From an uncultured Oscillospiraceae bacterium (GTDB taxonomy: Bacteria > Bacillota > Clostridia > Oscillospirales > Oscillospiraceae), in the NCBI GenBank assembly GCA_900758315.1, contig CAAERF010000555.1:1-25836 (forward strand): a stretch of DNA of 25,836 nt, written 5' to 3'. Below, piece after piece: positions 3,747 to 17,510 of the stretch. Both the position numbers and the translations under genes were made by a program. The notes under the pieces are model-generated. The model was not told the DNA's origin and ran no database searches. It saw only the letters and a program-made list of their open reading frames with translations. Each line of letters opens with the position of its first letter. The stretch's first letter is position 1.

Positions 3747-3946
3747 GGGAACCCATGAAGGAGAATCCCCGATTATTATGCTGTACTTGCTTATGATAAG
3801 TTCACTGCACCCGTTAAGACGGGCGCAGCCTACGCTACAAATGTGCCCCCGGCACATTTGCTTTACGCTGCGGCGCAGCGCAATGCGTTTTTGGGTCCAG
3901 CCTTTTTCCAAAAAGGCTGGCGGGGTCCAGGGGCAGAGCCCCTGGG
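3747..3946. repeat. Mosaic palindrome array R1 (between desulfurase and phosphorylase)
   Basis: This fills most of a 339-base gap without a gene. Stem-loops seen, left to right on the plus strand: a decayed GGGAACCC element (3747-3754, with 3763-3770), TGCACCCG/CGGGCGCA (3806-3827), CAAATGTGCC/GGCACATTTG (3838-3860), CGCTGC/GCAGCG (3866-3880), an 11-bp stem CCAGCCTTTTT/AAAAAGGCTGG (3897-3920) and CCAGGGGC/GCCCCTGG (3927-3945). The last hairpin is 3 bases from the desulfurase stop codon. The left part recurs reversed at 7625-7740 with paired base changes in the stems; the right part recurs at 15405-15451 and 17441-17485. No transposase and no target duplication were seen. Confidence 0.9.
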
Positions 3947-3948
3947 AA

Positions 3949-5091
3949 CTAGCTCATCGAGGGAAACAGCGTATCCCGGGCGTGTTTCAAAGCGGCGACG
4001 AAGGCGTCCACTTCCTCCCGGGAAGTGGACCGGTCGAAGGAGACCCGGAAGGCGCCGTTTCGCTGAGGTTTGCTTAGGGAGAGTGCCTCGTACACATGGC
4101 TGGCCTTGCCCCGATGGCAGGCGGACCCGGCAGAAATATATACGCCCTGATCTCCCAGTACCCGCACCAGCACTTCGCTCTTGTAGCCAGGCAGAGTCAG
4201 TGCCAGAATGTGGGGCGCCTCGCCGCAGCCAATCTGCTCCGCCTGGGGCACCTCTACCCGGAGCCGCTCCAAAGTGTACGTCTTCAAATCCTGTAAATAG
4301 GCGGCGGTGTCCGGGAGCTGTGCCTTTCCCACCTGACAGGCGGCGGCAAAGGCGGCGATCTGGGCAGTGGGTTCGGTGCCGGAGCGCAGTCCATTCTCCT
4401 GACCGCCGCCCAGAATCATGGGCTTCAGCGGCAGTCCCGAGCGGATGTACAGAGCGCCGATGCCCTTGGGTGCGTGGACCTTGTGCCCGCTGATGGTGAG
4501 CAGGTCCACTCCCAGCTTGGCCGGGGTGAAGGGCACCTTCAAAAAGCCCTGTACCGCATCGGTGTGGAATAAAATCCGCCGGTCGTATTTCTTTACCAGC
4601 GCTGCGGCTTCCCGGACCGGCAGCAGGGTGCCCAGTTCGTTGTTCACCAGCATCATGGACACCAGTGCGGTCTCGGGCCGCAGAGCGGCCTCCAGGTCGG
4701 CCAGGGAGACGGAGCCCTCCCGGTTGGGTGGCAGATAGGTGACCTCCCAGCCCTCGGCCTCCAGCTGATGGCAGGTCTGGAGCACCGCGTCGTGCTCGAT
4801 GGCGGTGGTGATGATGTGGCGGCCCTTGTGGCGGTTCCGGTCGGCGCCCAGCCGCAGGGCCCAGTTGTCGCTCTCGGTGCCGCAGGAGGTGAAAATCAGC
4901 TCCTTAGGTTGGCAGCCCAGAGCTGCGGCGACGATTTTCCGGTCACTGTCCAGCTGTTTTTTGGCCTGCTGGCCCAGCGAATACTGAGCGGAGGGATTGC
5001 CATAGCCCTCAGTCATCACGCGATAGGCCGCCTCAGCGGCCTCTTTGCATACCGGCGTGGTGGCGGCGTTGTCTAAATAGGCAGTTGTCAT
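3949..5091 (-). CDS. Cysteine desulfurase (NifS/IscS-like, class V aminotransferase fold)
   Basis: A 380-residue PLP enzyme that should take sulfur from L-cysteine as an enzyme persulfide and pass it to Fe-S cluster or thio-cofactor assembly. Seen in sequence: YLDNAATTP at 5-13, CGTESDN at 70-76 (phosphate contact), H100 in the EHDAV segment stacking on PLP, D178 and Q181 in HTDAVQG, the Schiff-base K204 in SGHKVHAPKG, RSGTEP at 236-241 and the catalytic C325 in SAGSACHRGKAS. The Cys-loop version is neither the classical IscS (SACTSASLEP) nor SufS form, so I give no gene symbol. Length is normal. The ribosome site is AGGTGA, 7 bases before the start. It stands alone between two repeat arrays with no scaffold gene (iscU) beside it; mtaB, Mrp and HemZ nearby are Fe-S proteins that could use its sulfur (inference). 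The stop TAG nearly touches array R1. Confidence 0.92.
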   Translation of the reverse strand: MTTAYLDNAATTPVCKEAAEAAYRVMTEGYGNPSAQYSLGQQAKKQLDSDRKIVAAALGCQPKELIFTSCGTESDNWALRLGADRNRHKGRHIITTAIEHDAVLQTCHQLEAEGWEVTYLPPNREGSVSLADLEAALRPETALVSMMLVNNELGTLLPVREAAALVKKYDRRILFHTDAVQGFLKVPFTPAKLGVDLLTISGHKVHAPKGIGALYIRSGLPLKPMILGGGQENGLRSGTEPTAQIAAFAAACQVGKAQLPDTAAYLQDLKTYTLERLRVEVPQAEQIGCGEAPHILALTLPGYKSEVLVRVLGDQGVYISAGSACHRGKASHVYEALSLSKPQRNGAFRVSFDRSTSREEVDAFVAALKHARDTLFPSMS

Positions 5092-5154
5092 TTGGTATCA
5101 CCTGAATTGATCTGAAAACAGTTGTGTATCATTCTTATCTGCTCACGCAGATCA

Positions 5155-5309
5155 GGGAACCCCTGACGTGGGTTCCCTACGGCCAAACTTGGTTTGGCCT
5201 ACCCTCCTGCGTTTTGGGGATCATGGGAGGTTTCGCACTCTGCGGAGTGCGACCAGAGACGCTGTCTCTGGACTCTGCCAGCCTTTGAAAAGGCTGGACC
5301 GAAACTTTC
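5155..5309. repeat. Mosaic palindrome array R2 (behind the DUF554 gene)
   Basis: This lies in the 243-base gap between desulfurase and DUF554 genes. Five stem-loops in a row on the plus strand: GGGAACCC/GGGTTCCC (5155-5177), GGCCAAAC/GTTTGGCC (5181-5199), TCGCACTC/GAGTGCGA (5233-5252), CCAGAGAC/GTCTCTGG (5253-5271) and CCAGCCTTT/AAAGGCTGG (5278-5297), then a conserved linker GACCGAAACTTT. The same five units in the same order and orientation recur at 7732-7888. A further small hairpin (ATCTGC/GCAGAT, 5137-5152) borders the array on the desulfurase side. I see no convincing promoter for the desulfurase in the remaining bases. Confidence 0.92.
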
Positions 5310-5334
5310 TGCTTTGGGAACAGCAGGATTTCAA

Positions 5335-6048
5335 CTAGATCGGCAGGAACCCCAGCGCCCAGGAGAGAATGGGCACGAAGACCAGGGCGGGGAGATAGTC
5401 AGCGACCTTGATTTTGGTTAGGCCGATGAGATTCAGGCCCAGTGCCAGAATCAGGACTGACCCGCAGCAGGTCAGCTCAGCGATGGCAGCGGTGGTGAGG
5501 AAGGGCGCCAGCACCGAGGCCAGCAGGACCAGTGCGCCCTGAAAGACCAGCACGAAGGCGGCGGACAGGAGGACGCCCAGTCCCAGGGAAGCCGCCAGCA
5601 TGGACGAGGAGATCAGGTCCAGCAGGGACTTGGTGAACAGCATCTCATTGTCACCGGAGATACCGGCGTTGAGGGAACCGACGATGGTCATACTGCCCAC
5701 GCAGAAGAGCAGGGAGGCAGTGACAAAGCCCTGTGCCAGAGAGATCCGGGCGGTACCCTCTTCCAGCGACTGTTTGTGGCTGAACTTTCCCTCGATCCAG
5801 TCGCCGAGGGCCTGAATTTTCCCGTCCAGGTCCAGCAGCGTGCCCACCAGGGCGCCCAGCACCATGGAGACGATGAGAACCAGGGTGTTTTCGCCGGCCA
5901 TCATACCGTCGATGCCAATGTAAATGGTACACAGGCCGATGCCCAGCATGATCGCGGAGGTCAGCCGCTGGGGGATGCCCTTTTTCAGCAGCAGGCCCAC
6001 ACAGCTGCCCACGATGACGGTGATGGTGTTGACCAGTACGCCGATCAT
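5335..6048 (-). CDS. DUF554 family membrane protein (YdfK/YqgA-like)
   Basis: A 237-residue integral membrane protein of the DUF554 family, whose transported substrate or role is not established. About six or seven hydrophobic segments cover nearly the whole chain, starting directly at residue 1 (MIGVLVNTITVIVGSCVG). Typical family blocks are the Gly-rich first helix, GIGLCTIYIGIDG near 36-48, GALVGTLLDLDGKI near 65-78 and the short loop around 78-90 ending in a GDWIEGKF-like stretch. Length agrees with the family (about 220-240). Its ATG overlaps the stop codon of mtaB by four bases (ATGA), so it is translationally coupled to mtaB and made from the same transcript. The pairing does not reveal its function. 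The stop is followed after about 25 bases by array R2. Confidence 0.88.
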   Translation of the reverse strand: MIGVLVNTITVIVGSCVGLLLKKGIPQRLTSAIMLGIGLCTIYIGIDGMMAGENTLVLIVSMVLGALVGTLLDLDGKIQALGDWIEGKFSHKQSLEEGTARISLAQGFVTASLLFCVGSMTIVGSLNAGISGDNEMLFTKSLLDLISSSMLAASLGLGVLLSAAFVLVFQGALVLLASVLAPFLTTAAIAELTCCGSVLILALGLNLIGLTKIKVADYLPALVFVPILSWALGFLPI

Positions 6049-7352
6049 AGAATCACTCCTTCCAGAGCACGGCCGGAGCGGCCGGTGATATGGACAGATT
6101 TCACGGTATTGTGGAGGTTCTGTTCCTGCTCCTCCGGCAGAGCGGACCAGAATACCTCCGCATAGTTGGGTGCGTGACCGTGCCAGCGACCCTCCACCTG
6201 CTCCTCGAAGAGAACAGGCAGGGTTTCACCGATCCAGCTGTCCAGGTAGCGCGCTTCCATCTTCCGGGCGACTTCGGCAGCGGCGTGACAGCGGGCCTCC
6301 TTCACCGCGTTGGGGAGCTGGTCGGGCAGACGGTCAGCCACGGTACCGCTCCGGCGGGAGTAGGGGAAGATGTGCATGGCGGCGAAGTCCGCCTGCTGAA
6401 TCAGGTCCAAGGTGGCGGCGAACTCCTCCTCGGTCTCGCCGGCGAAGCCGCAGATGAGATCGGTAGTGATGGCGGGCCGGTCAAAGAACTGGCGCAGCAG
6501 CCGGCAGGAATCCAGGAAGCGCCCGGCGGTGTACTTCCGGTTCATCCGCTTCAGAGTGGCGTCGCAGCCGGACTGGAGGGCCAGATGGAAGTGAGGACAC
6601 AGGTTGTCCTGCTGAGCTGCCCGGCGGCAGAACTCCTCGGTGATCGTCCGGGGCTCCAGACTGCCCAGCCGGATCCGCAGGGTAGGTGCCGCGTGGCACA
6701 CCGCCTCCACTAGGTCGATGAGGGTCTGGCCGGCCCCCAGATCCTCACCCCAGCTGGAGATCTCGATGCCGGTGAGCACGATCTCGTGGTAGCCGGCCTT
6801 GGCCAGCGCCCTGGTCTGAGTCACCGCCGCCGGGATGGAGGCACTGCGCACCGGTCCCCGGGTGAAGGGGATGATACAGTAGGTACAGAAGTTGCTGCAC
6901 CCGTCCTCCACCTTTAGCATGGCCCGGGTGCGGCCGGATAATCCGCCGGCTGGGAGCACCTCGAAATCGTGGCGCCGGAGGGCGTCGTCCACCGACACGG
7001 CGGGTGCGTCGGGCCGGACACTCTGCTGTTCCAGCCGGTCCAGAAAGGCCAGCCGGTCACCGGTGCCCGCCACCAGATCCACGCCCAGGGCGGCGATGTC
7101 CTCGGGTTTGGCCTGGGCGTAGCAGCCGCACACCGCCACGATGGCGTCCGGATGGTCCCGGCGGGTGCGGCGGATCATATTCCGGCACTTTTTGTCGCTG
7201 ACGGCGGTGACGGAGCAGGTGTTGATGATGTACACGTCGGCGTCGCCGTCAAAGGGAGTCAGAGTGTGACCCCGCTGGGTCAGAAGGGTCTCCATGGCCT
7301 GGGTCTCGTACTGGTTGACCTTGCAGCCCAGAGTATAAATCGCAAAGCGCAT
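6045..7352 (-). CDS. mtaB: tRNA t6A37 methylthiotransferase MtaB (radical SAM, two Fe-S clusters)
   Basis: A 435-residue radical-SAM methylthiotransferase converting t6A to ms2t6A at position 37 of ANN-decoding tRNAs. The N-terminal UPF0004 domain carries its cluster cysteines at C10 (TLGCKVNQYE), C46 (NTCSVT) and C77 (CGCYAQ); the radical-SAM CxxxCxxC is C152, C156 and C159 (GCSNFCTYCIIPFTRG); a TRAM-like tail follows after about residue 365. TLGCKVNQYE rather than a MiaB-type start points to MtaB. I chose ATG at 7352, because the family begins directly with (M)RFAIYTLGC and AAAGGCGAG lies upstream; an in-frame TTG at 7376 would add eight residues. A promoter is at 7411-7439. DUF554 overlaps its end (ATGA). 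The clusters need sulfur, which the neighbouring desulfurase could supply (inference). Confidence 0.93.
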   Translation of the reverse strand: MRFAIYTLGCKVNQYETQAMETLLTQRGHTLTPFDGDADVYIINTCSVTAVSDKKCRNMIRRTRRDHPDAIVAVCGCYAQAKPEDIAALGVDLVAGTGDRLAFLDRLEQQSVRPDAPAVSVDDALRRHDFEVLPAGGLSGRTRAMLKVEDGCSNFCTYCIIPFTRGPVRSASIPAAVTQTRALAKAGYHEIVLTGIEISSWGEDLGAGQTLIDLVEAVCHAAPTLRIRLGSLEPRTITEEFCRRAAQQDNLCPHFHLALQSGCDATLKRMNRKYTAGRFLDSCRLLRQFFDRPAITTDLICGFAGETEEEFAATLDLIQQADFAAMHIFPYSRRSGTVADRLPDQLPNAVKEARCHAAAEVARKMEARYLDSWIGETLPVLFEEQVEGRWHGHAPNYAEVFWSALPEEQEQNLHNTVKSVHITGRSGRALEGVIL

Positions 7353-7388
7353 AGAAATAAAGCTCGCCTTTCTCAATCAGAATCGAAG

Positions 7389-7402
7389 GCGGGAAATCCC
7401 GC
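7389..7402 (-). promoter_or_regulatory. Perfect inverted repeat at the mtaB transcription start
   Basis: GCGGGAAATCCCGC has 6-bp perfect arms around a two-base centre. It lies 8 bases downstream of the predicted -10 of mtaB, so it covers the likely +1. It could be a repressor site or a tiny 5' hairpin; nothing in the sequence decides. Confidence 0.3.
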
Positions 7403-7410
7403 AATCATTT

Positions 7411-7439: not shown

Positions 7440-7472
7440 GGGTAAAACCATATAAATTTGTATCAGATGTCA

Positions 7473-7502: not shown

Positions 7503-7555
7503 GGTCAGGATATCTACGGATTCTGGAAGGCAGAAATGGGAGATTTCGCACGTAG

Positions 7556-7888
7556 CCATGCCTGTCTTAACGGGCACAGTGAATGCATCGAAACAGGCAT
7601 GGTGCAATCATCGGGGAACCCCGCAGCGCCGCAGCGTGAAGCAAACGTGCCGGGGGCACGTTTGTAGCGTAGGCTGTGCCCGTCTTAACGGGCACAGTGA
7701 ACGTATCGAGAAAGGTAAGGCGTAATCGTCAGGGAACCCCTGGCGTGGGTTCCCTACGACCAAACTTCGTTTGGTCTACCCTCCTGCGCTTTTGGAATCA
7801 TAGAGAGTTTCGCACTCTGCGGAATGCGACCAGGGGCTTTGCCCCCTGGACCCCCACCAGCCTTTGAAAAGGCTGGATCCAAACTTTT
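7556..7888. repeat. Mosaic palindrome array R3 (largest copy, upstream of yfbR)
   Basis: This fills most of the gene-free stretch 7353-7936. On the plus strand: a TGCCTG/CGGGCA hairpin (about 7559-7576), a truncated GGGGAACCCC (7613-7622), CAAACGTGCC/GGCACGTTTG (7642-7664), TGTGCCCG/CGGGCACA (7675-7696), GGGAACCC/GGGTTCCC (7732-7754), GACCAAAC/GTTTGGTC (7758-7776), TCGCACTC/GAATGCGA (7810-7829), CCAGGGG/CCCCTGG (7830-7849) and CCAGCCTTT/AAAGGCTGG (7857-7876), then the CCAAACTTTT linker. The first half matches R1 reversed; the second half matches R2 nearly end to end. Short open frames of 60-75 codons across it are by-products of the repeat and not genes. Confidence 0.92.
7564..7740 (+). repeat. 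Imperfect direct repeat inside array R3 (two units, 118-base period)
   Basis: The 59-base units 7564-7622 and 7682-7740 match at 49 of 59 positions; the first 20 bases (GTCTTAACGGGCACAGTGAA) are identical. In the first unit the GGGAACCC palindrome is cut after its left arm and joined directly to a GCAGCG-type element, which looks like a recombination junction. Confidence 0.85.
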
Positions 7889-7936
7889 ATCTGGCGGGAC
7901 AGAGTACCTGAATAGAAACAGAGGGGAGGACCGGAG

Positions 7937-8524
7937 ATGGACTGTCATTTTTATGCCCTGATGGCCCGGATGCGCTACATTCAGCGCTGGGCGCTGATGC
8001 GAAACACGGAGCCGGAGAACATTCAGGAGCACTCCCACATGGTGGCGGTGCTGGCCCACGCCCTGGTGCTGATCCAGAACCGGTACTACGGCGGGCAGCT
8101 GGACCCGGGACAGGCGGTGCTGCTGGCCCTGTACCACGATGCCACCGAGATCCTCACCGGCGACCTGCCCACGCCCATCAAGTACTACAATCCGGACCTG
8201 CGCAGTTCCTATCAGGTGGTGGAGGACGCGGCGGCCCGACGGCTGCTGGACCTGCTGCCGGAGGAGCTGCGGGGAGATTACGAGCCACTTCTGCTGGAGC
8301 CGGACCCGGAGCTGGCGGCGGTGGTCAAGGCGGCGGACAAGCTGGACGCCTATCTGAAGTGCGTCAAGGAGCTGAAGGCCGGGAACGCGGAGTTCCGCAA
8401 GGCCAAGGAACAGACCTACGCCGCGCTGATGCGCAATCCGCTGCCCGCCCTCCAGCACTTTATTCTGCACTTTTTACCCAGCTTTGAGCTGACATTAGAC
8501 GAGCTGAACGGCTCGACGATCTGA
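7937..8524 (+). CDS. yfbR: 5'-deoxynucleotidase, YfbR family (HD domain)
   Basis: A 195-residue HD-domain phosphohydrolase closely resembling E. coli YfbR, which dephosphorylates deoxyribonucleoside 5'-monophosphates in the cytosol. The metal and catalytic set is visible: EHS with H32, YHDATE with H67, D68 and E71, TGDLPTP with D76, and a late Asp in KAADKLDAYL (D134/D137). The N-terminal SHF-type start followed by an arginine-rich RMRYIQRWALMRN segment is also as in YfbR. Length is typical (199 in E. coli). The ATG has GGGGAGGA upstream. It is the first gene of a plus-strand cluster; the ACT gene begins 44 bases after it. Its mRNA may start at 7502 and so carry array R3 as a long structured leader. 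Confidence 0.93.
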   Translation: MDCHFYALMARMRYIQRWALMRNTEPENIQEHSHMVAVLAHALVLIQNRYYGGQLDPGQAVLLALYHDATEILTGDLPTPIKYYNPDLRSSYQVVEDAAARRLLDLLPEELRGDYEPLLLEPDPELAAVVKAADKLDAYLKCVKELKAGNAEFRKAKEQTYAALMRNPLPALQHFILHFLPSFELTLDELNGSTI

Positions 8525-8847: not shown

Positions 8848-10206
8848 ATGCTGACAAGAAAGGAAATCATGCAGACCCTGGATATGATTGACCAGCAGCA
8901 TCTGGACATTCGTACCATCACCATGGGTATTTCCCTGCTCTCCTGCTGCCACCCGGACCCGGAGGAGGCCTGCCGGAGAATTTACGATAAGATCTGCCGT
9001 CACGCCGAACGCCTGGTGGCCACCGGCGAGCAGATCGAGCTGGAATTCGGCATTCCCATCGTCAACAAGCGGATCTCAGTGACGCCCATGGCCCTGGTGG
9101 CAGGGGCCAGCGAGACGGCGGACTACGTGCCCTTCGCCAAGGCTATGGACCGGGCTGCCAAGACCTGCGGCGTCAACTTCATCGGCGGCTACTCCGCCCT
9201 AGTCCACAAGGGTATGACCGACGCAGACCGGAAGCTGATCGCCTCCATTCCCGAGGCCCTGGCGGTGACCGACTTTGTCTGTTCCTCCGTCAACGTGGGC
9301 TCCACACGGGCGGGCATCAACATGGACGCCGTCCGGCTCATGGGCGAGACCGTGAAGAAAACCGCTCTGCGCACCGCCGACCAGGACGGTCTGGGCTGCG
9401 CCAAGCTGGTGGTGTTCTGCAACGCGGTGGAGGACAACCCCTTTATGGCCGGCGCGTTCCACGGCGTGGGCGAGGCGGAGTCCATCATCAACGTGGGCGT
9501 CTCCGGTCCCGGCGTGGTCTATCACGCCCTCCAGTCGGTGAAGGGACAGCCCTTTGACCAGGTGGCGGAGACGGTGAAGAAGACCGCTTTCCGGGTCACC
9601 CGGATGGGACAGCTGGTGGCCCGTGAGGCCAGCCAGCGCCTGGACGTGCCCTTCGGCATCGTGGACCTGTCCCTGGCGCCCACTCCGGCGGTGGGCGACT
9701 CGGTGGCCCGGATTCTGGAGGAGATGGGTCTGGAGCGCTGCGGCACCCACGGCACCACCGCGGCGCTGGCCCTGCTCAACGACGCGGTGAAGAAGGGCGG
9801 CGTCATGGCGTCCAGCCACGTGGGCGGCCTGTCCGGCGCCTTTATCCCGGTCAGTGAGGACGAGGGCATGATCGCCGCCGCCGAATCCGGCGTGCTGACC
9901 ATGGACAAGCTGGAGGCCATGACCTGCGTGTGCTCGGTGGGCCTGGATATGATCGCCGTGCCCGGCGACACCACCAGCGACACCATCGCCGCCATCATTG
10001 CCGACGAGGCGGCCATCGGCATGGTGAACAACAAGACCACTGCCGTCCGCGTCATTCCCGCCCAGGGAAAGGACGTGGGCGACCGGATTGAGATGGGCGG
10101 TCTGCTGGGCTCCGCACCGGTGATGCCGGTCCACAAGGAGTCCGCGGCGGACTTCATCGCCCGGGGTGGCCGGATTCCCGCACCGCTCCACAGCCTGAAA
10201 AACTGA
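8848..10206 (+). CDS. UPF0210 / DUF711 family protein (PFL-like fold)
   Basis: A 452-residue cytosolic protein of the UPF0210 (DUF711) family. The start ([14 protein letters not shown]), the TMGISLLSC block near 25-34, [17 protein letters not shown] near 68-84 and conserved Gly-rich segments in the second half ([20 protein letters not shown], about 297-316) are family signatures; length is normal. Some members are described as similar to glycyl-radical (PFL) proteins, but I see no activase partner here, and the biochemical function is unknown. GAGGTGG precedes the ATG. It is expressed with the ACT protein upstream, and its TGA overlaps the ATG of the LOG-family gene (ATGA), so translation of the two is coupled. 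Confidence 0.9.
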
Positions 10207-10857: not shown

Positions 10858-13800
10858 TTAGGAATGTTTCCGTTTTGTGCCGTAAACAATCATTCCGCCC
10901 AGACTGACGATGCTTACCAGCATAAGAGCGCCCCACAGGAAAACCTGAGATTGATCGCCCGTTTTCGGATTTTCAGAGCCACCGGTCTTGGACGTGGCCG
11001 TACCGCTGGTCTTATCCTTCTTGGTACTGGCTGTATGAGTCACCTTACCCTTGGCCGTACCCTTTGGCTCTGCTTTCCCGCATACCGTACATTTCCCGTC
11101 CTGGTAAGAATGGTCTGTCTGGCTGCCTTCGTCAATGACAGTGTTAGTCGCTCCACAACCGTAGTCGCACACAGCCGTTTTGGTTCCATCTGCTTCACAG
11201 GTCGCATTGCCGTCGGACACATAGTCTGTAAAGCTGTGGTCAATCGGCGTGCCACTGGTGAAGGTCTCGGTGGTGCTGACATAACCGCATACAGAGCAGG
11301 ATTGGTAGTACACTGCCGCATCGACACAGGTTGCGTCAGACTTTTTGGCCTCATCCTTCACGATATTGGCAAAGTCATGAGTGGCGATTTCGCTTTTTTC
11401 GCCGCAGGCACATGCATGCCAATGGCTTTCGGCGTTGGATACCCAGCTGTCGCCATAGCTGTGGGTATGAGTGGGCTCACTGGTATAGGAGCAGTCGATA
11501 GAGCCGATGGTCAGGGCGCCGGAGGTAACACCATCGGTGAAACGGTACACAGGCCGCTGTCCGTCCACGGTAAATTCAGGGTCGGCAATGGCAAAGCCTT
11601 CGTTGTTGGCTGTCTTGTCCACGCCTGCCGCAGGAGTTACATGAACCACAGCAGGCTCATTCGCACCGTTAAAGGTAAGGACTGCGGCCATGTTGCCATA
11701 GCCGTCATCGGCTGCCACCCATAATTTCTTTTCGTAAGTGTCATAGTCCAGGGCCATAGCGCCGCCCAGCTTACTGTCGATGTCAGCGATCTGCACCACG
11801 GTACTGTCAGCATTTAGCACATAGGCGTAAACGTGGCCATTATCCTCCAGCGCGACGAAGAATACGCCGCCTGCCACGGCATTGGGATAGTTGGCAGGGT
11901 CAAAGGCGGCATTGGTGTTCTGGTCGAAGAGCACACCGGATACCTCTGCGTTGGCGACCCACTCCACGGCCTCGATGCCGGTGTTGGCGGCCACATCAGG
12001 GAGGGTGGCGGTGAGATCCCACTGCTGCATGGCGTTTTGCGTGTCACCCTCGGCACGGGGATCAGCCTTCAGAATCACGTTGTAGTTGACGCCCTTGTTG
12101 GAGTTGTCGCGCTCGGAGGCTAGGTACACAAAGCCGTCACTGTCCACGGTGATGCCCTCGGTGTCAGGGCCCTTGGCAGTGGGCGTCACGAAATTCACGG
12201 TCTTGCCATTCTCAAAGCCCTCGGCAAAGGTCAGGGTGCCGTCGGCGGCAACGTCCAGGACCCAGAACGTACCGGTGCCGTTGTCCACGGCGTAGAGCTG
12301 CCCATTATGGAAGTCCAGGCCGGAGGAGTCCTCCAGGAAGCTCAGGTCAGAGGTGGTGACGATATCGCTGCCGGGCCAGACGATCACTTCGGGCGTGCCG
12401 GCAAACACATTGGCCGCACCAGGAGTTGCCTCCAGTGTATTGCGGTATTCGGTGCCGGTCACATTGGGGTACAGGCCCCAAGTGGGATCGGTATGACCTT
12501 CCCATGTGGTGGAGGCGATGAGAACACCGTTTTCAAACAGACGGACGGAGTCTCCCTTCCCCAGACCAAAGCCGAATTCATCATCGGTGATGACAAGAAA
12601 GCCATTGGCGGGGATGGGGGGACCTTCGGGGATCACATATTCGTGGGTATCGTCATTGTCCTTGATGACGATACCGGAGATGTCCAGTGCCGCATCGGTG
12701 GGGTTTGCCAGTTCAATCCAGTCGGGACCACCATCGGGATCATTGGACTGCACCTCGTTGATGACCACGGGGTTGACCACGATGTTGGCTTTTCCCTTGG
12801 TGGCGGTGGCGAAGTCAATGAGCTCACCGGTACCGTCGGGAATCCGGGCATAGACCCCTTCGGCGTGCTGTTCCCACGCATAAGTGGCAACGACCGCCCC
12901 ATCTGCGTTGTAGATGGTCACGCTGTCCTCCTTGCCCAGGCCGAACGTGAAGTGGATGCCGCCGTCAAAGACATAGAACGCGCCGGGCTCCAGAATGGTA
13001 CCTGCGGCAACAGGAGTGATGTCAGCAGCGTGACCAACGGGGTCATTGTCATACAGATACCAGCCGGAGATATCCACGGCAGTGGTGCCTGCGTTATAAA
13101 CCTCTACCCAGTCGGTGTCGTCGCCATTGGACTCCACCTCGTTGATGACCACTGCGGGCGCGTACCAGCTGTTGGCGGCGCCAGGAGTCTCCGGCATCAG
13201 CACGAAAGAGCCGGTGCCATCGGGATAACGGCCCCAGGAGGCGGCGGATTCATCACCGTCCACATTGGCGTGCTCTGTCCAGCTGTGGCTGTCCACCACG
13301 CTGCCCGCAGCATTGTACAGGCGGATGGAGTCACCGGATCCGATGCCAATGGCCTCGTCGAAAGCACCTTCTACGTAGGTGTCGGTGCTGTCATCAAAAA
13401 TCAGGCCCACGGAATCGGCCTTTACCAGCAGGAGGCTGCCTGCCTGAATTGTAGTGCCGTGGGCGAAGCGCCAGCGGTGGTCATCGGAGTTGTCCCGAAG
13501 TTCCCATCCGGTCAGATCCAGGGCGGTGTCACCGATGTTCATCAGCTCCACCCAGTCATCAGGTGAGGAGTTGACCTCGTTAATCACCAGGGCGCCGGTG
13601 GTAACGGCAGGAGCGTCCTCGGACTCCCCGGGTTCCTTGGTCTCCACGGTGTTGACAGCTCCCTTCGTGGGAGCCTGATCCACAAATTCGCCGCTTTCCG
13701 TGCGGGAATAAGTGCCCTCAGCATGACTGGTCCAGGAGAAGGAATCCACCACATTACCTGCGGCATCGTAAAGCGTGACGGTATCCGCTTTCCCCAGGCC

Positions 13801-14142
13801 AAAGTCGAAGTTTACGGTTTCTTCCAGCACCAGCACCTCATCGGCCTTCAGCACAGTACCCTCTGCCAGAGGATAGGTGCTGGCTTCCTCAACACGTTCT
13901 GTGCCCTTATCGTCGGTGATGTACCAGCCGCTGATGTCCGCATCGGTTTCGCCAGCGTTAATGATCTCTACCCAATCGTTGCCTCCATCGGCATCGTCGG
14001 ATTCGATCTCATTGATAAGAATCTTGCTTGTCACTTCTGAAACTTCTGCTGCATATACATTTTGGATCGGTATCGATACCAAACCCACTGCCACGCATGC
14101 ACTAAGCAGACGGCGCAGACTGTTATTCCTCTTTCCTTTCAT
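10858..14142 (-). CDS. Cell-wall-anchored surface protein with four lamin-tail domains and NPKTG sorting signal
   Basis: A 1094-residue secreted protein. I place the start at ATG 14142 (AAAGGA upstream, then a signal peptide of about 32 residues ending in VYAA); an in-frame start 28 codons upstream would spoil the signal peptide. After it come four lamin-tail (LTD) repeats at about 40-162, 184-323, 330-452 and 458-577, each opening with (V/L)INE(V/I) and DWVE, with FGLGK-DSV-LY motifs inside. Residues 585-882 resemble an esterase-like/SdiA-regulated beta-propeller (SSGLDFHNGQLYAVDN, TEGITVDSDGFVYLASE). Residues 890-1022 hold Cys/His repeats (HWHACACG, CSVCG, CTVCG) common in gut Clostridia surface proteins and possibly metal-binding. 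The end has NPKTGD (1058-1063), one membrane helix and a basic KRKHS tail, the pattern for sortase anchoring. No sortase gene is in the window. Binding target or enzymatic role is unknown. Confidence 0.88.
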   Translation of the reverse strand: MKGKRNNSLRRLLSACVAVGLVSIPIQNVYAAEVSEVTSKILINEIESDDADGGNDWVEIINAGETDADISGWYITDDKGTERVEEASTYPLAEGTVLKADEVLVLEETVNFDFGLGKADTVTLYDAAGNVVDSFSWTSHAEGTYSRTESGEFVDQAPTKGAVNTVETKEPGESEDAPAVTTGALVINEVNSSPDDWVELMNIGDTALDLTGWELRDNSDDHRWRFAHGTTIQAGSLLLVKADSVGLIFDDSTDTYVEGAFDEAIGIGSGDSIRLYNAAGSVVDSHSWTEHANVDGDESAASWGRYPDGTGSFVLMPETPGAANSWYAPAVVINEVESNGDDTDWVEVYNAGTTAVDISGWYLYDNDPVGHAADITPVAAGTILEPGAFYVFDGGIHFTFGLGKEDSVTIYNADGAVVATYAWEQHAEGVYARIPDGTGELIDFATATKGKANIVVNPVVINEVQSNDPDGGPDWIELANPTDAALDISGIVIKDNDDTHEYVIPEGPPIPANGFLVITDDEFGFGLGKGDSVRLFENGVLIASTTWEGHTDPTWGLYPNVTGTEYRNTLEATPGAANVFAGTPEVIVWPGSDIVTTSDLSFLEDSSGLDFHNGQLYAVDNGTGTFWVLDVAADGTLTFAEGFENGKTVNFVTPTAKGPDTEGITVDSDGFVYLASERDNSNKGVNYNVILKADPRAEGDTQNAMQQWDLTATLPDVAANTGIEAVEWVANAEVSGVLFDQNTNAAFDPANYPNAVAGGVFFVALEDNGHVYAYVLNADSTVVQIADIDSKLGGAMALDYDTYEKKLWVAADDGYGNMAAVLTFNGANEPAVVHVTPAAGVDKTANNEGFAIADPEFTVDGQRPVYRFTDGVTSGALTIGSIDCSYTSEPTHTHSYGDSWVSNAESHWHACACGEKSEIATHDFANIVKDEAKKSDATCVDAAVYYQSCSVCGYVSTTETFTSGTPIDHSFTDYVSDGNATCEADGTKTAVCDYGCGATNTVIDEGSQTDHSYQDGKCTVCGKAEPKGTAKGKVTHTASTKKDKTSGTATSKTGGSENPKTGDQSQVFLWGALMLVSIVSLGGMIVYGTKRKHS

Positions 14143-14457
14143 GAGACATCCTTTCTTGCATCTCGATAGCTGGGGAGTGCACAAGATGCGGTGTAATACG
14201 GGCCTGATGCAGAAGTGGAAGCGCAATCGTTGTTTTTTACATCAGGTGATCCATGCCAAGTATAACGGAGCACTGTAAAATCCGAAATCAAACAAGAATC
14301 AAATCTGTGTAAAAAGTAGATTAAATCGCCCAACACCAGATCAATACAGAATTTATCGCGCAGAAGTGAGCTGGTTTTCATTCAACGCGGAAAATAGCCC
14401 TGACATTTGAATGTCAGGGCTATTTCACTTGATAAAGAGATCGAGCATCTGTCCACG
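14143..14457. other. AT-rich intergenic region upstream of the surface protein gene
   Basis: These 315 bases contain the terminator at 14391-14425 and a TATACT on the minus strand with no good -35 at the right distance (a TTTACA is only 9 bases away). Promoter assignment for the surface protein is therefore open. I see no gene or repeat here. Confidence 0.6.
14391..14425 (-). terminator. Intrinsic terminator of the HhH-GPD glycosylase gene
   Basis: A 15-bp perfect stem (14392-14406 with 14411-14425) around a TTGA/TCAA loop; on the minus strand the stem ends in ATTTTCC. It is 33 bases after the glycosylase stop codon. The A-rich other side could let it act weakly on the plus strand too. Confidence 0.8.
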
Positions 14458-15219
14458 TTATTTCCAGCTACAGTATGTACCCTGTAGCCGGCATTGGTCG
14501 CAATGGGGCTTTTCGGTGCATATCATTCCGTTATCATGGGAGCAGAAAAGCCACAGAATCGCATCAATTCGACTGGGCAAATAACCTGTTTCGGACGATA
14601 TCGCGTTGATGATATCGATTGATTCCAGTTCACCAGCGACCTCATTGGGAGAGTATCCCAACCGTTTGCTTCCTAATACACGCCGAATGTGGGTGTCCGG
14701 TTTCGCCGCATCGATGCCCACATTTCGCAGGTATTCCATGGCCAGAGCCAGTCCGAGCGCGTTTATTTTGTATTTGAGGCTGTTGGCGAGCAGGTCTGCA
14801 ATTTCAAGAGGAATTCCGCTCAGCACAAAATGGTCAAGGGAACCGAATTCCTGTTCGATACGTTCGAATTTGTGGATATTGCCATGCAGGGCATTCATTT
14901 GTTTTCGGATCCCACGATTTCCGCATTTGATTGCCAGTATTTCCTCAATAAAGTATTCGGGAGAAGTATCAAGAATCTTATCCTTATCGTAATGGAAGAA
15001 GATTTCGTCGATCCGATCAATATTGGCTTCTATCTGCATCCAGGGGCGGTTGTTGCTCAGCTGCGAATAGATCAAAGCACGAATATGCTCCGACATGGAA
15101 AACGTCTTTCCCTCAGCGCGTTGTTGGATCCAGTCCAGATGGGTTAAATGATCGAATGATATGTGCCTGTCTCGAAGCATTGCCTCAATTTCCGAAAGAA
15201 TAGCACAGCTGTTCTGCAT
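14458..15219 (-). CDS. HhH-GPD base-excision DNA glycosylase with C-terminal Fe-S loop
   Basis: A 253-residue endonuclease III-superfamily protein. The helix-hairpin-helix region is around 149-170 (LKYKINALGLALAMEYLRN) and is followed by KPDTHIRRVLG, whose D175 matches the catalytic Asp of Nth/MutY (VDTHI). The last residues hold four cysteines, C234, C240, C243 and C250, spaced 5-2-6 instead of the usual 6-2-5. The damage specificity is not readable. The start is ATG 15219 with a perfect AAGGAGGAG; an upstream extension to 15306 would run through the promoter at 15260-15287. The gene is clearly less GC-rich than its neighbours (28 and 20 G+C in the 60-base lines from 14881 and 14941), suggesting acquisition. 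It has its own promoter and terminator, so it is monocistronic. Confidence 0.75.
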   Translation of the reverse strand: MQNSCAILSEIEAMLRDRHISFDHLTHLDWIQQRAEGKTFSMSEHIRALIYSQLSNNRPWMQIEANIDRIDEIFFHYDKDKILDTSPEYFIEEILAIKCGNRGIRKQMNALHGNIHKFERIEQEFGSLDHFVLSGIPLEIADLLANSLKYKINALGLALAMEYLRNVGIDAAKPDTHIRRVLGSKRLGYSPNEVAGELESIDIINAISSETGYLPSRIDAILWLFCSHDNGMICTEKPHCDQCRLQGTYCSWK

Positions 15220-15259
15220 AGGAACGCTCCTCCTTATTGTATCTGACTCCTCCTGTATG

Positions 15260-15287
15260 ATTATAGTGGAAAATGGGAAAAAGTCCA
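15260..15287 (-). promoter_or_regulatory. Promoter of the HhH-GPD glycosylase gene
   Basis: Minus-strand TGGACT (15282-15287), 16 bases, then a perfect TATAAT (15260-15265), about 40 bases before the chosen start. It also rules out the longer reading of the gene. Confidence 0.65.
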
Positions 15288-15309
15288 TTCCGTTTGCGAA
15301 AAGCAAAAC

Positions 15310-15348
15310 ATAAGCGATACCCGGTCATAAAAGCCAGGCATCGCTTAT
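15310..15348 (-). terminator. Terminator-like hairpin behind the MATE gene
   Basis: ATAAGCGAT (15310-15318) pairs with ATCGCTTAT (15340-15348), with further CC/GG pairs inside. On the minus strand it is followed by GTTTTGCTTTT. It is the first conventional terminator-like structure after the MATE stop, beyond array R4. Confidence 0.5.
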
Positions 15349-15364
15349 TTATATGGTGTGTTCC

Positions 15365-15462
15365 TGCGCCGATTTTTTAATCGGCGCAGCAAAAGTTTTC
15401 GGTCAAGCCTTTTACAAAAGGCTTACGGGGGTCCAGGGGCAGCGCCCCTGGGGGCAAAGCCC
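15365..15462. repeat. Mosaic palindrome array R4 (3' side of the MATE gene)
   Basis: On the plus strand: TGCGCCGATT/AATCGGCGCA (15365-15388, perfect 10-bp stem), the linker AAAAGTTTTCGGTC (15391-15404), AAGCCTTTT/AAAAGGCTT (15405-15424), CCAGGGGC/GCCCCTGG (15433-15451) and a small GGGC/GCCC (15452-15462). The MATE stop codon is at 15464-15466. The same order of units occurs at 17406-17485 behind mrp. Confidence 0.92.
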
Positions 15463-15463
15463 T

Positions 15464-16849
15464 CTACGCAGGCTGTGGCAGACGGTCCAGCCGTTTAAAA
15501 TCGCGGAAGATCAGGGAGAGTGACAGGACGCAGGCCATCACTTCGGCGATGGGCCCTGCGGCGAGTACGCCGTTCAGGCCGAACAGCAGCGGCAGAATCA
15601 GGAGCAGTGGGATGAGGAAAAAGCCCTGACGGGACAGGGAGAGCACAATACCCTGCCTGACATTGCCGGTGCTGGTAAAGTAGTTCACCGTCAGCGGCTG
15701 AATGCCGGTGATACAGACCATCATCATGTAAATGCGCAGATACTGCTCTGCGAACTGGTAGTATAGCTCCTCACCACTGCCGAAAAGGCTGGTGATCTGG
15801 CGCGGGAAAAGCTGGAAGGCCAGAAAGGCCAGGCAGCTGAAGCACAGAGCGGCCAGAGCGGCCTTTTTGTAGGTCTCCTTGATGCGGGGGTAGTTTTTCG
15901 CGCCCATGTTGAAGCTGAAGATGGGCTGACAGCCGTGGGCCAGGCCCACTGTGCAGGAAATCAGGATAGTATTGACCTTCGCCACGATGCCGGAGACAGC
16001 CAGCGGGATGTCACTTCCATAGATGGACATTGCGCCATAGTAGGTCAGCGTGTTGTTCAGAACGATGTTCACCAGGGTCATTACCGTGTGGTTGATAAAG
16101 TTGGAGGTGCCCAGCTTGGCAATCTGGACGATGTAGGAGGGACGCAGCCGCAGCAGTGCCCTTTTGATAGGAAAGGCCCTGAAACGGGGAAAGTAGCCGA
16201 TGCAGAGGCAGGCGGAAATCACCTGACCGGTGACAGTTGCGGCAGCCGCGCCCTGAATGCCCCAGTGGAACTCCATCATAAACAGCCAGTCCAGGAAGAT
16301 GTTCAGGATGGCGCCGGAGACGTTGCAGACCATGGAGTAGGTGGGACTTCCGTCCGCACGGATCAGCATACTGCTGGCGTTGGTGAACAGCAGGAAGGGC
16401 AGGCCGAAGGCGGTGATGCTGAGATAGGAATACGCGTAGGGAAGCACGGCCTCAGTCGCGCCGCAAAGGAGCAAAACCGGCATCCGGAACAGCAGAATGA
16501 GACCGCTCAGCAGCAGGCCCAGGAGAACAGACATCGTCAGTCCGGTCCCGATGTATTTTTCAGCGTCGGACTGATTTTTCGCGCCCATACAGAGGTTGAA
16601 GTTGGCGGCAGTCCCCACACCGGTCAGCTGAGCCAGCGCAGTGGTCAGGGTTGCCGTGGGAAAGGCCACATTGGTCGCCGCATTGCCCAGCATCCCCACC
16701 ACATGGCCGATAAAGATCTGGTCCGTGATATTGTAGGCGGCGCCGACCAGCAAACTGATCATAGATGGGATGGCGAATTTTCGAATCAGCGCCGGAATGG
16801 GTGCGTAGCCTAGCGGATTCTCACGGACAGACTGGACTTGTTCAGCCAT
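15464..16849 (-). CDS. MATE family multidrug/cation efflux transporter
   Basis: A 461-residue inner-membrane exporter of the MATE family, expected to expel cationic drugs or metabolites in exchange for Na+ or H+. About twelve hydrophobic segments span the chain in two halves. The N-terminal IRKFAIPSMISLLVGAAYNITDQIFIG is the typical helix-1 signature, with a second-half counterpart near 250-290. The length fits. I chose ATG 16849, which has GGAGGTGA five bases upstream; the GTG three codons earlier falls inside that site. The first codons overlap the end of the marR gene by eight bases, so the two are co-translated, and the efflux pump is probably under MarR control. The stop lies one base from array R4. 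The substrate is unknown. Confidence 0.92.
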   Translation of the reverse strand: MAEQVQSVRENPLGYAPIPALIRKFAIPSMISLLVGAAYNITDQIFIGHVVGMLGNAATNVAFPTATLTTALAQLTGVGTAANFNLCMGAKNQSDAEKYIGTGLTMSVLLGLLLSGLILLFRMPVLLLCGATEAVLPYAYSYLSITAFGLPFLLFTNASSMLIRADGSPTYSMVCNVSGAILNIFLDWLFMMEFHWGIQGAAAATVTGQVISACLCIGYFPRFRAFPIKRALLRLRPSYIVQIAKLGTSNFINHTVMTLVNIVLNNTLTYYGAMSIYGSDIPLAVSGIVAKVNTILISCTVGLAHGCQPIFSFNMGAKNYPRIKETYKKAALAALCFSCLAFLAFQLFPRQITSLFGSGEELYYQFAEQYLRIYMMMVCITGIQPLTVNYFTSTGNVRQGIVLSLSRQGFFLIPLLLILPLLFGLNGVLAAGPIAEVMACVLSLSLIFRDFKRLDRLPQPA

Positions 16850-17285
16850 GACGATCACCTCCCTGTCTCCCGCGGTTTAAGTTGACCACCATTTTAAGCA
16901 GGGTTCCCCGGAGCGCAGCACTTTCTTCCGGGGAAATGCCGTCGGTCAGCAGCTCGTTGAACTGGTCCAGCGCCGCCTTTACATCCGCAGCAATGGCCTT
17001 GGCCCGGTCTGTGGGGAACAGTAAATTCTGGCGCCGGTCCGCATCGTCCTGGACGCGGGTCAAAAATCCCTTTTCCTCCATGGATTTGACCACTCTGGCA
17101 GTCGCCGACTTGTCCACACCGACCAGTGCGGTCAACCGTTCCTGAGTGACCCCTTCGTTGTGCAGCAGCGCCATAAAGAAGGGCTGTTCCGCCGCCGTCA
17201 GGCCGAAGGGACGCATCGCGTCTGTAATATAACCCTGACTTTTTCTGGCCAGCAGATTGATCAGCCGGGCCGCAGTTACGTTCAT
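16842..17285 (-). CDS. MarR family transcriptional regulator
   Basis: A 147-residue winged-helix repressor of the MarR family. The start is ATG 17285 with GAGGTGA before it; longer in-frame starts would overlap the promoter at 17305-17333. The N-terminal helix ends near residue 30, LTAAEQPFFMALLHNEGVTQERLTALVGVDKSATARVVKSMEEKGFLTR (about 29-77) is the HTH, and the DRRQN... wing motif (about 81-87) follows. The remainder is the dimer helix. It overlaps the MATE gene by eight bases. An inverted repeat in its own promoter suggests autorepression together with the pump, relieved by a ligand such as a phenolic compound (family knowledge; ligand unknown). Confidence 0.93.
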   Translation of the reverse strand: MNVTAARLINLLARKSQGYITDAMRPFGLTAAEQPFFMALLHNEGVTQERLTALVGVDKSATARVVKSMEEKGFLTRVQDDADRRQNLLFPTDRAKAIAADVKAALDQFNELLTDGISPEESAALRGTLLKMVVNLNRGRQGGDRHG

Positions 17286-17304
17286 GTTTCTCACCTCAAA
17301 GGAG

Positions 17305-17333
17305 ATCATATCGCAAATTAGTTGATATGTCAA
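17305..17333 (-). promoter_or_regulatory. Promoter of the marR-MATE operon
   Basis: Minus-strand TTGACA (17328-17333, perfect), 17 bases, TATGAT (17305-17310, one off consensus). It begins about 20 bases before the marR start codon, leaving a short leader. Confidence 0.85.
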
Positions 17334-17334
17334 C
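17321..17334. promoter_or_regulatory. Candidate MarR operator overlapping the -35
   Basis: GTTGATATGTCAAC: arms GTTGA and TCAAC around a 4-base centre, covering the -35 element of the marR promoter. A second loose dyad, ATATC/GATAT, spans the spacer. The position fits autorepression; binding by this MarR is inferred. Confidence 0.5.
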
Positions 17335-17346
17335 GATGTGAATGTG

Positions 17347-17380
17347 AAAATGGGAACTCTCAGTGATAGAGTTCCCATTT
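17347..17380 (-). terminator. Terminator-like hairpin beyond array R5 (mrp side)
   Basis: AAATGGGAACTCT pairs with AGAGTTCCCATTT (13 bp) around CAGTGAT; on the minus strand ATTTTCAC follows. It is about 140 bases after the mrp stop, with array R5 in between, and just upstream of the marR promoter. Confidence 0.55.
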
Positions 17381-17405
17381 CTGAACGCGGTTTAATTTTG
17401 CCTCA

Positions 17406-17510
17406 GCGCCAATGGAATTGGCGCGCAAAAAGTTTTCGGTCAAGCCTTTTGCAAAAGGCTTGCGGGGTCCGGGGCAGCGCCCCGGCGGGATGCAAGGGCA
17501 GCGCCCTTGC
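17406..17510. repeat. Mosaic palindrome array R5 (3' side of mrp)
   Basis: On the plus strand: GCGCCAAT/ATTGGCGC (17406-17424), the linker AAAAAGTTTTCGGT, the 22-base palindrome CAAGCCTTTT/AAAAGGCTTG (17441-17462), CCGGGGC/GCCCCGG (17469-17485) and GCAAGGGC/GCCCTTGC (17492-17510). It ends five bases before the mrp stop codon (TAA, 17516-17518). Same order and orientation as R4, with paired changes in several stems. Confidence 0.92.

Follow-up and report, generated by a model that had tools for sequence, protein, structure and literature searches.

Composite intergenic hairpin repeats with conserved, covarying units in an uncultured Oscillospiraceae bacterium and its relatives

The five repeat loci (R1 to R5) of the window, i.e., the whole stretch of 25,836 nucleotides analysed here, are best explained as composite intergenic hairpin elements of a class that is widespread among the relatives of the host, and whose hairpins would be kept as units for recognition or exchange at the level of DNA. 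We give this reading a probability of about 60%. Apparently, this is a large class of patchwork hairpin repeats of gut bacteria that has no name, and our literature search of open-licence papers returned no title or abstract describing the hairpin family.

The composites would combine three or more sorts of small repeat: a core of two stems behind an AAAGTTT-like leader (unit B), often at gene 3' ends and, in some genomes, with a series of interchangeable hairpin modules after it; REP-like hairpins with a GTAG foot, as in R2 and R3; and unit A with a second hairpin, a putative protein-free mini-element. As for the function that we infer for these repeats, their hairpins would be kept as units that a DNA-level machinery recognises or exchanges, and unit A is probably recognised as single-stranded DNA of one strand. 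If hairpins are the unit of exchange, many of the paired changes would be replacements of whole hairpins, through conversion or template switching among copies. Their position at gene 3' ends may be tolerated by the host, or it may help to terminate and protect transcripts.

Composition of the five loci

Each locus contains one unit B, and R1 and R3 contain unit A as well (Table 1). The pattern is not a product of chance. A repeat search recovered the mosaic family described in the earlier note, with units in shared order and orientation: R2 and R3 share a direct repeat of 105 nt (89%), and R1 and R3 an inverted repeat of 86 nt (91%). The shared hairpin units are real, although we counted nine kinds of them rather than about eight. 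The covariance model of unit B matched exactly the five loci in the window (E 6e-21 to 2e-15) and that of unit A matched R1 and R3; the window copies were inside the alignments of both models, so that independent support comes from the many copies in other genomes.

Table 1 Features of the five repeat loci (positions in the window)
Locus	Feature	Positions	Strand	Remarks
R1	Degenerate remnant of REP-like palindrome C, no GTAG left	3747-3770	-	Partly by eye, against R2/R3
R1	Second hairpin (part m) of A element	3808-3825	-	
R1	Unit A, imperfect strand-specific hairpin	3827-3876	-	Unit A model 74.9 bits; copy in model's alignment
R1	Unit B core, stems 3897-3920 and 3927-3945	3880-3946	+	Unit B model 64.2 bits; copy in model's alignment; ends 2 nt from stop codon of NifS-like gene 3949-5091(-)
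R2	REP-like hairpin C, GTAG foot	5154-5180	-	
R2	REP-like hairpin hp4, GTAG foot	5181-5202	-	
R2	18-nt hairpin module CGC-NNNN-CGCA-NNNN-GCG	5234-5251	-	
R2	Unit B core, stems 5253-5271 and 5278-5297	5252-5314	-	Unit B model 78.8 bits; starts 20 nt past stop codon of DUF554 gene 5335-6048(-)
R3	Hairpin, probably of an earlier m part	7560-7575	+	
R3	P, displaced copy of insertion target	7602-7622	+	End of 64-nt repeat
R3	Unit A	7626-7675	+	Unit A model 74.9 bits; copy in model's alignment
R3	Second hairpin (m) of A element	7676-7695	+	
R3	P', target copy joined to intact palindrome	7720-7740	+	
R3	REP-like hairpin C, GTAG foot; A element's target	7731-7757	-	
R3	REP-like hairpin hp4, GTAG foot	7758-7779	-	
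R3	18-nt hairpin module, one T-G pair	7811-7828	-	
R3	Unit B core	7829-7893	-	Unit B model 73.3 bits; 43 nt upstream of YfbR-like gene 7937-8524(+)
R4	Hairpin hp0	15366-15387		
R4	Unit B core, stems 15404-15425 and 15433-15451	15387-15452	+	Unit B model 60.8 bits
R4	Third hairpin	15452-15462		1 nt from stop codon of MATE gene 15464-16858(-)
R5	Hairpin hp0	17406-17424		
R5	Unit B core, stems 17441-17462 and 17469-17485	17424-17487	+	Unit B model 64.9 bits
R5	Third hairpin	17492-17510		5 nt from stop codon of Mrp-like gene 17516-18427(-)

The paired changes reported earlier were read out position by position and are correct. The G-C pair at 5182/5198 is A-T at 7759/7775, the A-T pairs at 5257/5267 and 5259/5265 are G-C at 7834/7845 and 7836/7843, and T-A at 3842/3856 is C-G at 7646/7660. 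Likewise, CCAGCC/GGCTGG of R1-R3 is CAAGCC/GGCTT in R4 and R5 (with the outermost pair broken in R4, C opposite A), and GCGCCGATT/AATCGGCGC of R4 is GCGCCAAT/ATTGGCGC in R5.

R2 and R3 display two perfect hairpins of REP architecture each (C and hp4), all four with a GTAG foot, and the whole window contains five GT[AG]G sites, where 20 Markov controls averaged 0.3. The proposed likeness to REP/BIME elements holds for these hairpins, but not for most units, as the GT[AG]G foot is missing from units A and B, hp0, hp3, and the 18-nt module. The lack of a RAYT gene was borne out among the 20 window reading frames that were scanned with Pfam, out of 68 of at least 90 aa.

The four GTAG-footed hairpins had been overlooked by the earlier note, and so had the arrangement of R3. 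Judging from its sequence, R3 is a probable nested insertion, unit A being flanked by two copies of its target that have diverged; a 64-nt repeat at 7559-7622 matches 7677-7740. The hairpin on its left may derive from an A element of which unit A is gone or left as a remnant. No empty site for R1-R5 could be demonstrated among 80 relatives' loci, since the closest MtaB among the matches listed is 72% identical and there was one short match (L034). A simple promoter and terminator scan of the window was uninformative (15 terminator-like sites, 11.6 expected).

Covariation and exchange of whole hairpins

Covariance model searches of relatives, as the earlier note had proposed, detected unit A in 65 of 300 genomes and unit B in 11 of 150; the copies per genome, with 20 or 35 candidates scored, are minimum numbers. 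The structures of both units are conserved and covary. Among 90 distinct copies of unit A, 98.8% of the cells are paired and 107 are double-changed, and all five covariation measures exceed 500 of 500 shuffles. For unit B (56 distinct copies), 99.5% of the cells are paired and 141 are double-changed; three of five measures exceed all 500 shuffles, while the other two are unexceptional (113 and 490 of 500 shuffles equally high). Under a tree-conditioned null, computed in imitation of R-scape from 60 null alignments by Fitch parsimony, 3 of 17 proposed pairs of unit A and 6 of 14 of unit B pass at E<0.05, as do three non-proposed pairs of unit B; alignments A3-A5 had been fitted to the models. 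Near-identical copies of unit B (30 close links) displayed two one-sided and no double changes, so that concerted double change is unseen at short range.

Orthologous composites of three sister genomes from another genus (G068, G212, and G292), whose long aligned pieces are about 92-96% identical, provided insights into how paired changes arise. Three of the seven alignable composites exchange, gain, or lose whole hairpins while the linkers are unchanged. In the other four the modules are kept, one having single-sided differences and one a damaged core in G292. In the contig-end stretch of G068 there were ten module clusters, five of which mapped to a sister; two G292 mappings were out of order and dropped, and composite c36596 was unalignable. 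The layout in the three genomes is unit B, then zero to three modules, and then, at loci 1 and 2, a common end part. The frame of these modules is, by eye, that of the 18-nt module of R2. Most modules are drawn from a small common set of stems: six stem types make up 46 of the 54 modules in the G068 stretches; G212 has all six (18 of 25 modules) and G292 has four (7 of 13).

The paired changes of the arms are real, and they seem to arise largely through the swapping of whole hairpins. The part of the earlier note's claim that stands is that pairing is kept by concerted changes of both arms, beyond what decay would leave; the part that does not is a base-by-base origin, since orthologues exchange whole hairpins from a small stem set. 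For the window itself, exchange of this kind would be an extrapolation from the other genus. A functional RNA is usually argued from covariation. In these repeats, strong covariation occurs together with evidence that whole hairpins are swapped between copies, so that covariation by itself can mislead in repeat families.

Unit A at the ends of genes

Unit A and its second hairpin form the A element, which mostly spans 110-170 nt and encodes no protein. Its sites include the ends of the housekeeping genes infB, lepA, tpiA, hinT, and truA (names from NCBIfam on one example each), where a displaced copy of the gene end lies on one side of unit A and a working copy on the other. We scanned 92 of the 95 unit A matches (E up to 1e-4; copies with short flanks omitted), among which at least four places occur twice. 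An abutting copy plus a second copy downstream scored at least 13 in 25 of the 92, against 4 of 298 cross-locus pairs, these controls reaching 18.5 because some genomes repeat their flanks. Seventeen of the 25 are ends of the five genes, and in all 17 the second copy is joined to the gene. Among the other eight, the match of the copy at pgk (L087) is confined to the inner stem of unit A, and the working gene end lies on the opposite side. The remaining 67 copies displayed no gene-end layout at this cut-off, and many lie in larger, genome-specific composites. The flanks of unit A in R3 have a layout similar to that at gene ends.

Displaced and working gene ends differ by 51 synonymous and 5 non-synonymous codon changes (111 and 441 sites, respectively) in 21 hand-picked pairs at infB, lepA, tpiA, and truA, a few of which score below 13; hinT, pgk, tRNA, and non-coding sites and re-fetched duplicates were left out. 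Two of the five non-synonymous differences are at two-element sites (L098 and L202). At truA, the one gene for which an empty site is shown, the site is empty in the sister species G227 and G175, while in G104 the displaced copy keeps the native 5' flank, the differing end is on the working side, and elements have accreted in tandem at one site. As in integrative elements, the target gene end is restored by a copy borne on the element at all five genes. From these sequence patterns, unit A looks like a protein-free mini-element with a replacement gene end.

No mobilising enzyme was found for unit A. Tyrosine-recombinase-like matches occurred in 25 of 25 genomes and none was assignable; an integron integrase was rejected, with 0 of these 25 possibly incomplete genomes over the TIGR02249 cut-off. 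Terminal inverted repeats with a short identical target duplication, the layout of a MITE of a DDE transposon, were not found for unit A. A larger parent element with cargo was also discarded: among 20 fetched stretches, 16 of them with at least 9 kb on the gene side, none of the far second copies outscored the near one, trivial scores aside, and seven copies without a near second copy but with at least 9 kb on the gene side had no far one. Nor did a phage or plasmid carrier hold, as one A element, from L098, was unmatched in phage and plasmid collections; one exact pattern match was found in viral contigs, within a phage-like contig.

We tentatively propose, at somewhat less than even odds, that unit A moves without a protein of its own and, throughout this bacterial family, enters the ends of essential genes as a folded single strand, each version bringing a replacement end for its target. 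The surrounding mosaics would, in this reading, change cassette by cassette, whole hairpins being switched at breakpoints within their loops, in a hairpin shuffling system served in trans by a putative single-strand DNA recombinase. Should it prove mobile, unit A would rank with the smallest elements we know of that give an essential gene a new end, and would transfer stop codons, 5' leaders, and start codons from one genus to another. If a mobilising protein exists, it could represent a compact system for single-strand integration. In this family of gut bacteria the repeats are common, and they affect assembly, annotation, and the mapping of gene ends.

Alternative explanations and known systems

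It is possible, although we doubt it, that unit A, once it has arrived at a gene end, spreads without a recombinase of its own, by homologous recombination between species with the gene body and the short displaced copy as arms. The identical insertion point in different genomes at infB, lepA, tpiA, and hinT would fit, as would the flanks of truA. However, the left arm is only 16-58 nt and often has mismatches, the insertion point at truA differs between G225 and the others, and the arrival of unit A at many unrelated sites, including a parS-like sequence and other repeats, is not explained. Somewhat less probable, and in our view unlikely, is selection on RNA in cis, with hairpins that end or protect transcripts and change by ordinary compensatory substitution. 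The covariation of both units, including under the tree-based null, argues for it, and so do the same-strand stop codons within 60 nt upstream of unit B (24 of 45 copies, 15% of random points) and the GC-rich hairpin with T-rich sequence that, by eye, ends the composites at loci 1 and 2. Yet three of the 17 pairs of unit A are mostly G.T (228 of 238 G.T cells; 5 A.C cells), fixed on one strand although unit A occurs in either orientation to the gene, and at infB, lepA, tpiA, and hinT the gene reads the strand opposite to this fold. Of the inner-stem cells of unit A, 106 had changed in both arms, 2 to a wobble, and 4 were unpaired; orthologues exchange whole hairpins, and in the window unit B is antisense to the gene at three of four gene 3' ends (R1, R4, and R5).

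REP/BIME elements moved by a RAYT encoded elsewhere in the host genome are a distinctly less probable source, despite the GTAG hairpins of R2 and R3. In relatives, weak Y1 matches (22-32 bits) have inverted GTAG hairpins in or beside them (L122, L126, L128, and L129), resembling a RAYT subclass described in PMC6006769. But Y1 genes are not enriched with unit A (29 of 65 genomes with it, 95 of 235 without; p = 0.57) and are absent from 9 of 16 A-rich and 4 of 11 unit B genomes, which speaks against a RAYT as mobiliser of units A and B. It is very improbable that the repeats belong, as a divergent branch, to the Clostridiales-2 candidate RNA family (RF02937). Window positions 7749-7863(-) align along its whole model (E 0.002-0.004), but at 22.7 bits against a gathering score of 58.6; six relatives' loci had no match up to E 1, and 0 of 150 genomes exceeded the cut-off, four having weak matches. 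No Rfam family reached its gathering score in the window, and 20 relatives' loci had only an unrelated T-box. Least credible of all is a decaying dead element with coincidental paired changes: degenerate pieces do occur in R1 and in the left part of R3, but nearly all cells are paired in both units, and chance or decay is refuted by covariation and copy number. We favour composite elements whose hairpins are kept for recognition or exchange as DNA.

Among known systems, the Clostridiales-2 RNA resembles R3 by its weak full-length match, and differs in that this match is far below the gathering score and has no counterpart in six relatives' loci. Double-hairpin elements of fungal mitochondrial DNA are small mobile hairpins with variable stems, which likens them to the repeats described here; they are organellar, and we know of no case in which they carry gene ends. 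They are named in PMC5910586. Unlike a MITE of a DDE transposon, unit A has a hairpin foot at one end and a target copy at the other, and its flanking copies are 16-58 nt long, most of them with differences.

As described in PMC3049150, streptococcal BOX elements (boxA-boxB-boxC) have fixed end modules and a number of inner modules that varies between strains. The composites of G068, G212, and G292 share this architecture; their inner parts are alternative stems in one frame, and the sequence examined here yielded neither terminal inverted repeats nor a parent IS. REP, BIME, and REPIN elements with their RAYT are likewise intergenic palindrome mosaics with several stem types, preserved pairing, and GTAG-footed hairpins, and a passage of PMC2817692 describes preserved palindromes as 'suggesting selection for complementary mutations'. 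They differ in the foot, which most units here lack, in the association with Y1 genes, and from unit A, whose fold is bulged and strand-specific and whose layout restores a gene end.

The ends of IS200/IS605 elements and integron attC sites are strand-specific imperfect hairpins; unit A folds into such a hairpin, its inner stem varies, and cleavage at one foot would suit it, although it has no conserved GT[AG]G foot and its junction does not resemble that of attC. Integrative elements flanked by att repeats restore a gene end. Unlike these, the A element is short, has no integrase or gene inside, and keeps one structure across many different genes. Like them, it displays displaced and working gene ends, mostly synonymous differences between the two, and tandem accretion, as at truA in G104.

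Setting and anatomy of the window repeats

The repeats of the window are real and are members of a large class, for which no published description was found in a literature search of open-licence papers. No Rfam family reached its gathering score in the window. Among the matches listed, the closest relatives were uncultured Clostridiales/Oscillospiraceae genomes, with an MtaB-like protein at most 72% identical. The genomes sampled belong to the same family as G001, which gave the nearest match.

Unit B, a two-stem core, is composed of a leader like AAAGTTT, a first stem (e.g. CCAGCCTTTT/AAAAGGCTGG), a spacer like GGGGTCC, and a second stem (e.g. CCAGGGGC/GCCCCTGG). The matches of its covariance model in the window were exactly the five repeat loci R1 to R5, and the model of unit A, a 50-nt imperfect hairpin, matched R1 and R3; the alignments behind both models included the window copies. 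R4 and R5 displayed a simple form, made of hairpin hp0, unit B and a third hairpin adjoining the stop codon. R2 and R3 also carry an 18-nt module (CGC-NNNN-CGCA-NNNN-GCG) and two GTAG-footed hairpins.

Unit A was present in 65 of 300 genomes, with at least 20 copies in some of them (counts are lower bounds, with 20 candidates scored per genome). Unit B was present in 11 of 150 genomes, of which G068 has 35 copies or more, and a composite of about 235 nt occurs at dozens of sites in three of the seven genomes of the genus of G068. By crude gene calling (open frames of 100 codons), a same-strand stop codon lay within 60 nt upstream of unit B in 24 of 45 copies vs 15% of random points; three of the four gene-end copies of the window are oriented against the strand of their gene. 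For unit A, the same calling placed an opposite-strand stop downstream in 41 of 97 copies (16% at random) and a same-strand stop upstream in 24 of 97 (15% at random).

Features of the window and of stretches from relatives (L-numbers)
Feature	Stretch	Position	Description
R1	window		at stop codon of NifS-like gene
R2	window		near stop codon of DUF554 gene
R3	window		between divergent MtaB-like and YfbR-like genes
R4	window		at stop codon of MATE gene
R5	window		at stop codon of Mrp-like gene
R3 flanking copies	window	7602-7622, 7720-7740	flank unit A and second hairpin
Foot site	window	12643-12674	GTGG
Reading frame	window	10858-14226	1122 residues; four lamin-tail domains, phytase-like stretch
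pgk	L086	1501-1626	repeated gene end, working end upstream
pgk	L087	1500-1625	as in L086
Unit A	L213	near 9898-9947	inserted in sequence like parS (TTTCACGTGAAA)
Unit A	L083	near 1499-1549	as in L213; apparent ParA gene beside it (by eye)
Unit A	L297	11146-11186	one copy in phage-like contig (by eye, from frames)
Unit A	L155	1501-1910	beside duplicated tRNA-like sequence; run of N in contig
Weak Y1, GTAG hairpins	L122	1447-1621
Weak Y1, GTAG hairpins	L126	1671-1860
Weak Y1, GTAG hairpins	L128	1396-1589
Weak Y1, GTAG hairpins	L129	1640-1969

Unit A and duplicated gene ends

Unit A, a putative mini-element, is the most unusual piece of these mosaics. In 25 of 92 copies, a sequence P, read as the displaced copy of the insertion target, ended within 8 nt of the unit A start and a second copy (P') followed downstream at a score of at least 13, which was reached by 4 of 298 cross-locus control pairs. 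Gene ends account for 17 of these cases (infB 6, lepA 5, truA 3, tpiA 2, hinT 1), and P' was in every one of them the copy continuous with the remainder of the gene. With one example of each compared to NCBIfam, IF-2, LepA, triose-phosphate isomerase and TruA scored above the curated cut-off, and the HinT-like protein below it. The other eight cases were R3 of the window, L087 (pgk), L083 (parS-like palindrome), L155 (tRNA-like sequence), and four at other repeats, with one place counted twice among these four.

Across 21 pairs, P and P' differed by 51 synonymous and 5 non-synonymous codon differences, at about four non-synonymous sites per synonymous one, and by this excess both copies probably remained coding during most of the period since they separated. 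The truA gene illustrates the arrangement. Its start is uninterrupted in the sister genomes G227 and G175, and in G104 the displaced start retains upstream sequence like theirs, followed by two elements in tandem. In G015, G197, G104, G227 and G175, the native or displaced start has the sequence ATGAGA or ATGAAA, while the working start of G104 begins with ATGCG, a feature shared by the working copies in G015, G197 and G225; in G225, ATGCG opens both copies.

The elements were mostly about 110-170 nt long, with longer ones of about 250 nt (L155) and 315 nt (L217). The layout of R3 is alike, with the REP-like palindrome C as insertion target; its repeat extends to 64 nt, since upstream there is also a second hairpin from an earlier event. 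At pgk, the hairpin matches the inner stem of unit A only, and this arrangement is related to, but different from, the gene-end layout. In L162, L163 and L183, a truncated unit A is directly followed by a complete one, as if one had been inserted in another.

Pairing and the exchange of whole hairpins

Every base pair quoted in the earlier note was correct when positions were read out and stems located by exact string, and the covariation it proposed was also recovered in part of the pairs: against a tree null, in which the same substitutions were replayed on the same tree with columns random, 3 of 17 proposed pairs were significant in unit A and 6 of 14 in unit B, along with no non-proposed pair in unit A and three in unit B. 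Pairing was nearly complete, at 98.8% of cells in unit A (107 double-changed, 90 distinct copies) and 99.5% in unit B (141 double-changed, 56 distinct copies), and the inner stem of unit A held 106 double-changed cells vs 2 wobbles and 4 unpaired. For unit B, two measures did not stand out from shuffles: the count of pairs showing double changes was equalled or exceeded by 113 of 500 shuffles, and the count of pair types by 490. Over all links of the minimum spanning trees of the copies, one-sided and double changes numbered 36 and 26 in unit A, and 25 and 41 in unit B. Among links of at most four differences, unit A displayed 19 double changes and 30 one-sided ones, the majority of the latter being GC/GT and AT/GT steps; unit B displayed two one-sided and no double changes, which counts against concerted short-range change in this unit.

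The origin of the paired differences was examined in G068, G212 and G292, whose orthologous stretches are about 92-96% identical over long pieces. Of eight orthologous composites examined, seven allowed an alignment. Three of the seven (locus 2, c32494 and c45684) kept the linkers GAAAYNCCC but had entire hairpins exchanged, gained or lost. All three modules of locus 2 differ, each in at least one species, and two G068 modules of c45684 resemble, by eye, arm-swapped chimaeras joined in the loop GCGCAC. Modules, where present, were stable in the other four, one of which had single-sided differences and one a damaged core in G292. Six stem types covered 46 of 54 modules in the G068 stretches, and the same types took in 18 of the 25 modules of G212 and 7 of the 13 of G292, by a pattern that also picks up a few non-modules; four of the eight G068 singletons were single-base departures from a common type. 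With so few shared stem types and hairpins being exchanged, the paired differences are largely differences between alternative hairpins. These observations support the view that copies in the three genomes change mainly by exchange with one another, and applying this view to the window is an extrapolation. The pairing described in the earlier note is right, and the preferred reading shifts from slow compensatory selection to mosaics in which hairpins of several families, mobile now or in the past, are exchanged whole.

At several places in one genus (L323/L324 and L329-L331 of G068, with orthologues in G212 and G292), the apical loop of unit B stem 1 holds, by eye, an inserted sequence of its own, about 160 nt long. 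Insertion may favour the loops of hairpins.

Strand, candidate enzymes and relation to REPs

In unit A, three pairs out of 17 are mostly G.T (228 of 238 G.T cells; 5 A.C cells), and would be A.C on the opposite strand. The gene reads the strand opposite to the G.T fold at infB, lepA, tpiA and hinT, and the G.T-fold strand at truA. A fold kept on one strand irrespective of gene direction suggests either recognition at the DNA level or an independent RNA, and makes a role in the transcript of the host gene less likely.

Y1 transposase matches were present in 124 of 300 genomes with no association to unit A (p = 0.57; 29 of 65 genomes with it vs 95 of 235 lacking it), and were absent from 9 of 16 unit-A-rich genomes. 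No integron integrase was found in 25 genomes at the integrase cut-off, and the stretches around unit A that were inspected gave no sign of a larger parent element.

Inverted GTAG hairpins, each with its own stem sequence, lie in or beside several weak, RAYT-like Y1 matches of relatives. These matches resemble a RAYT subclass described in PMC6006769, and their hairpins suggest that true REPs probably exist in the sampled family beside the units studied here. In the window, four GTAG-footed sites and the one GTGG site compare with a mean of 0.3 expected over 20 Markov controls; the four GTAG-footed sites, all within R2 and R3, display the architecture of REPs.
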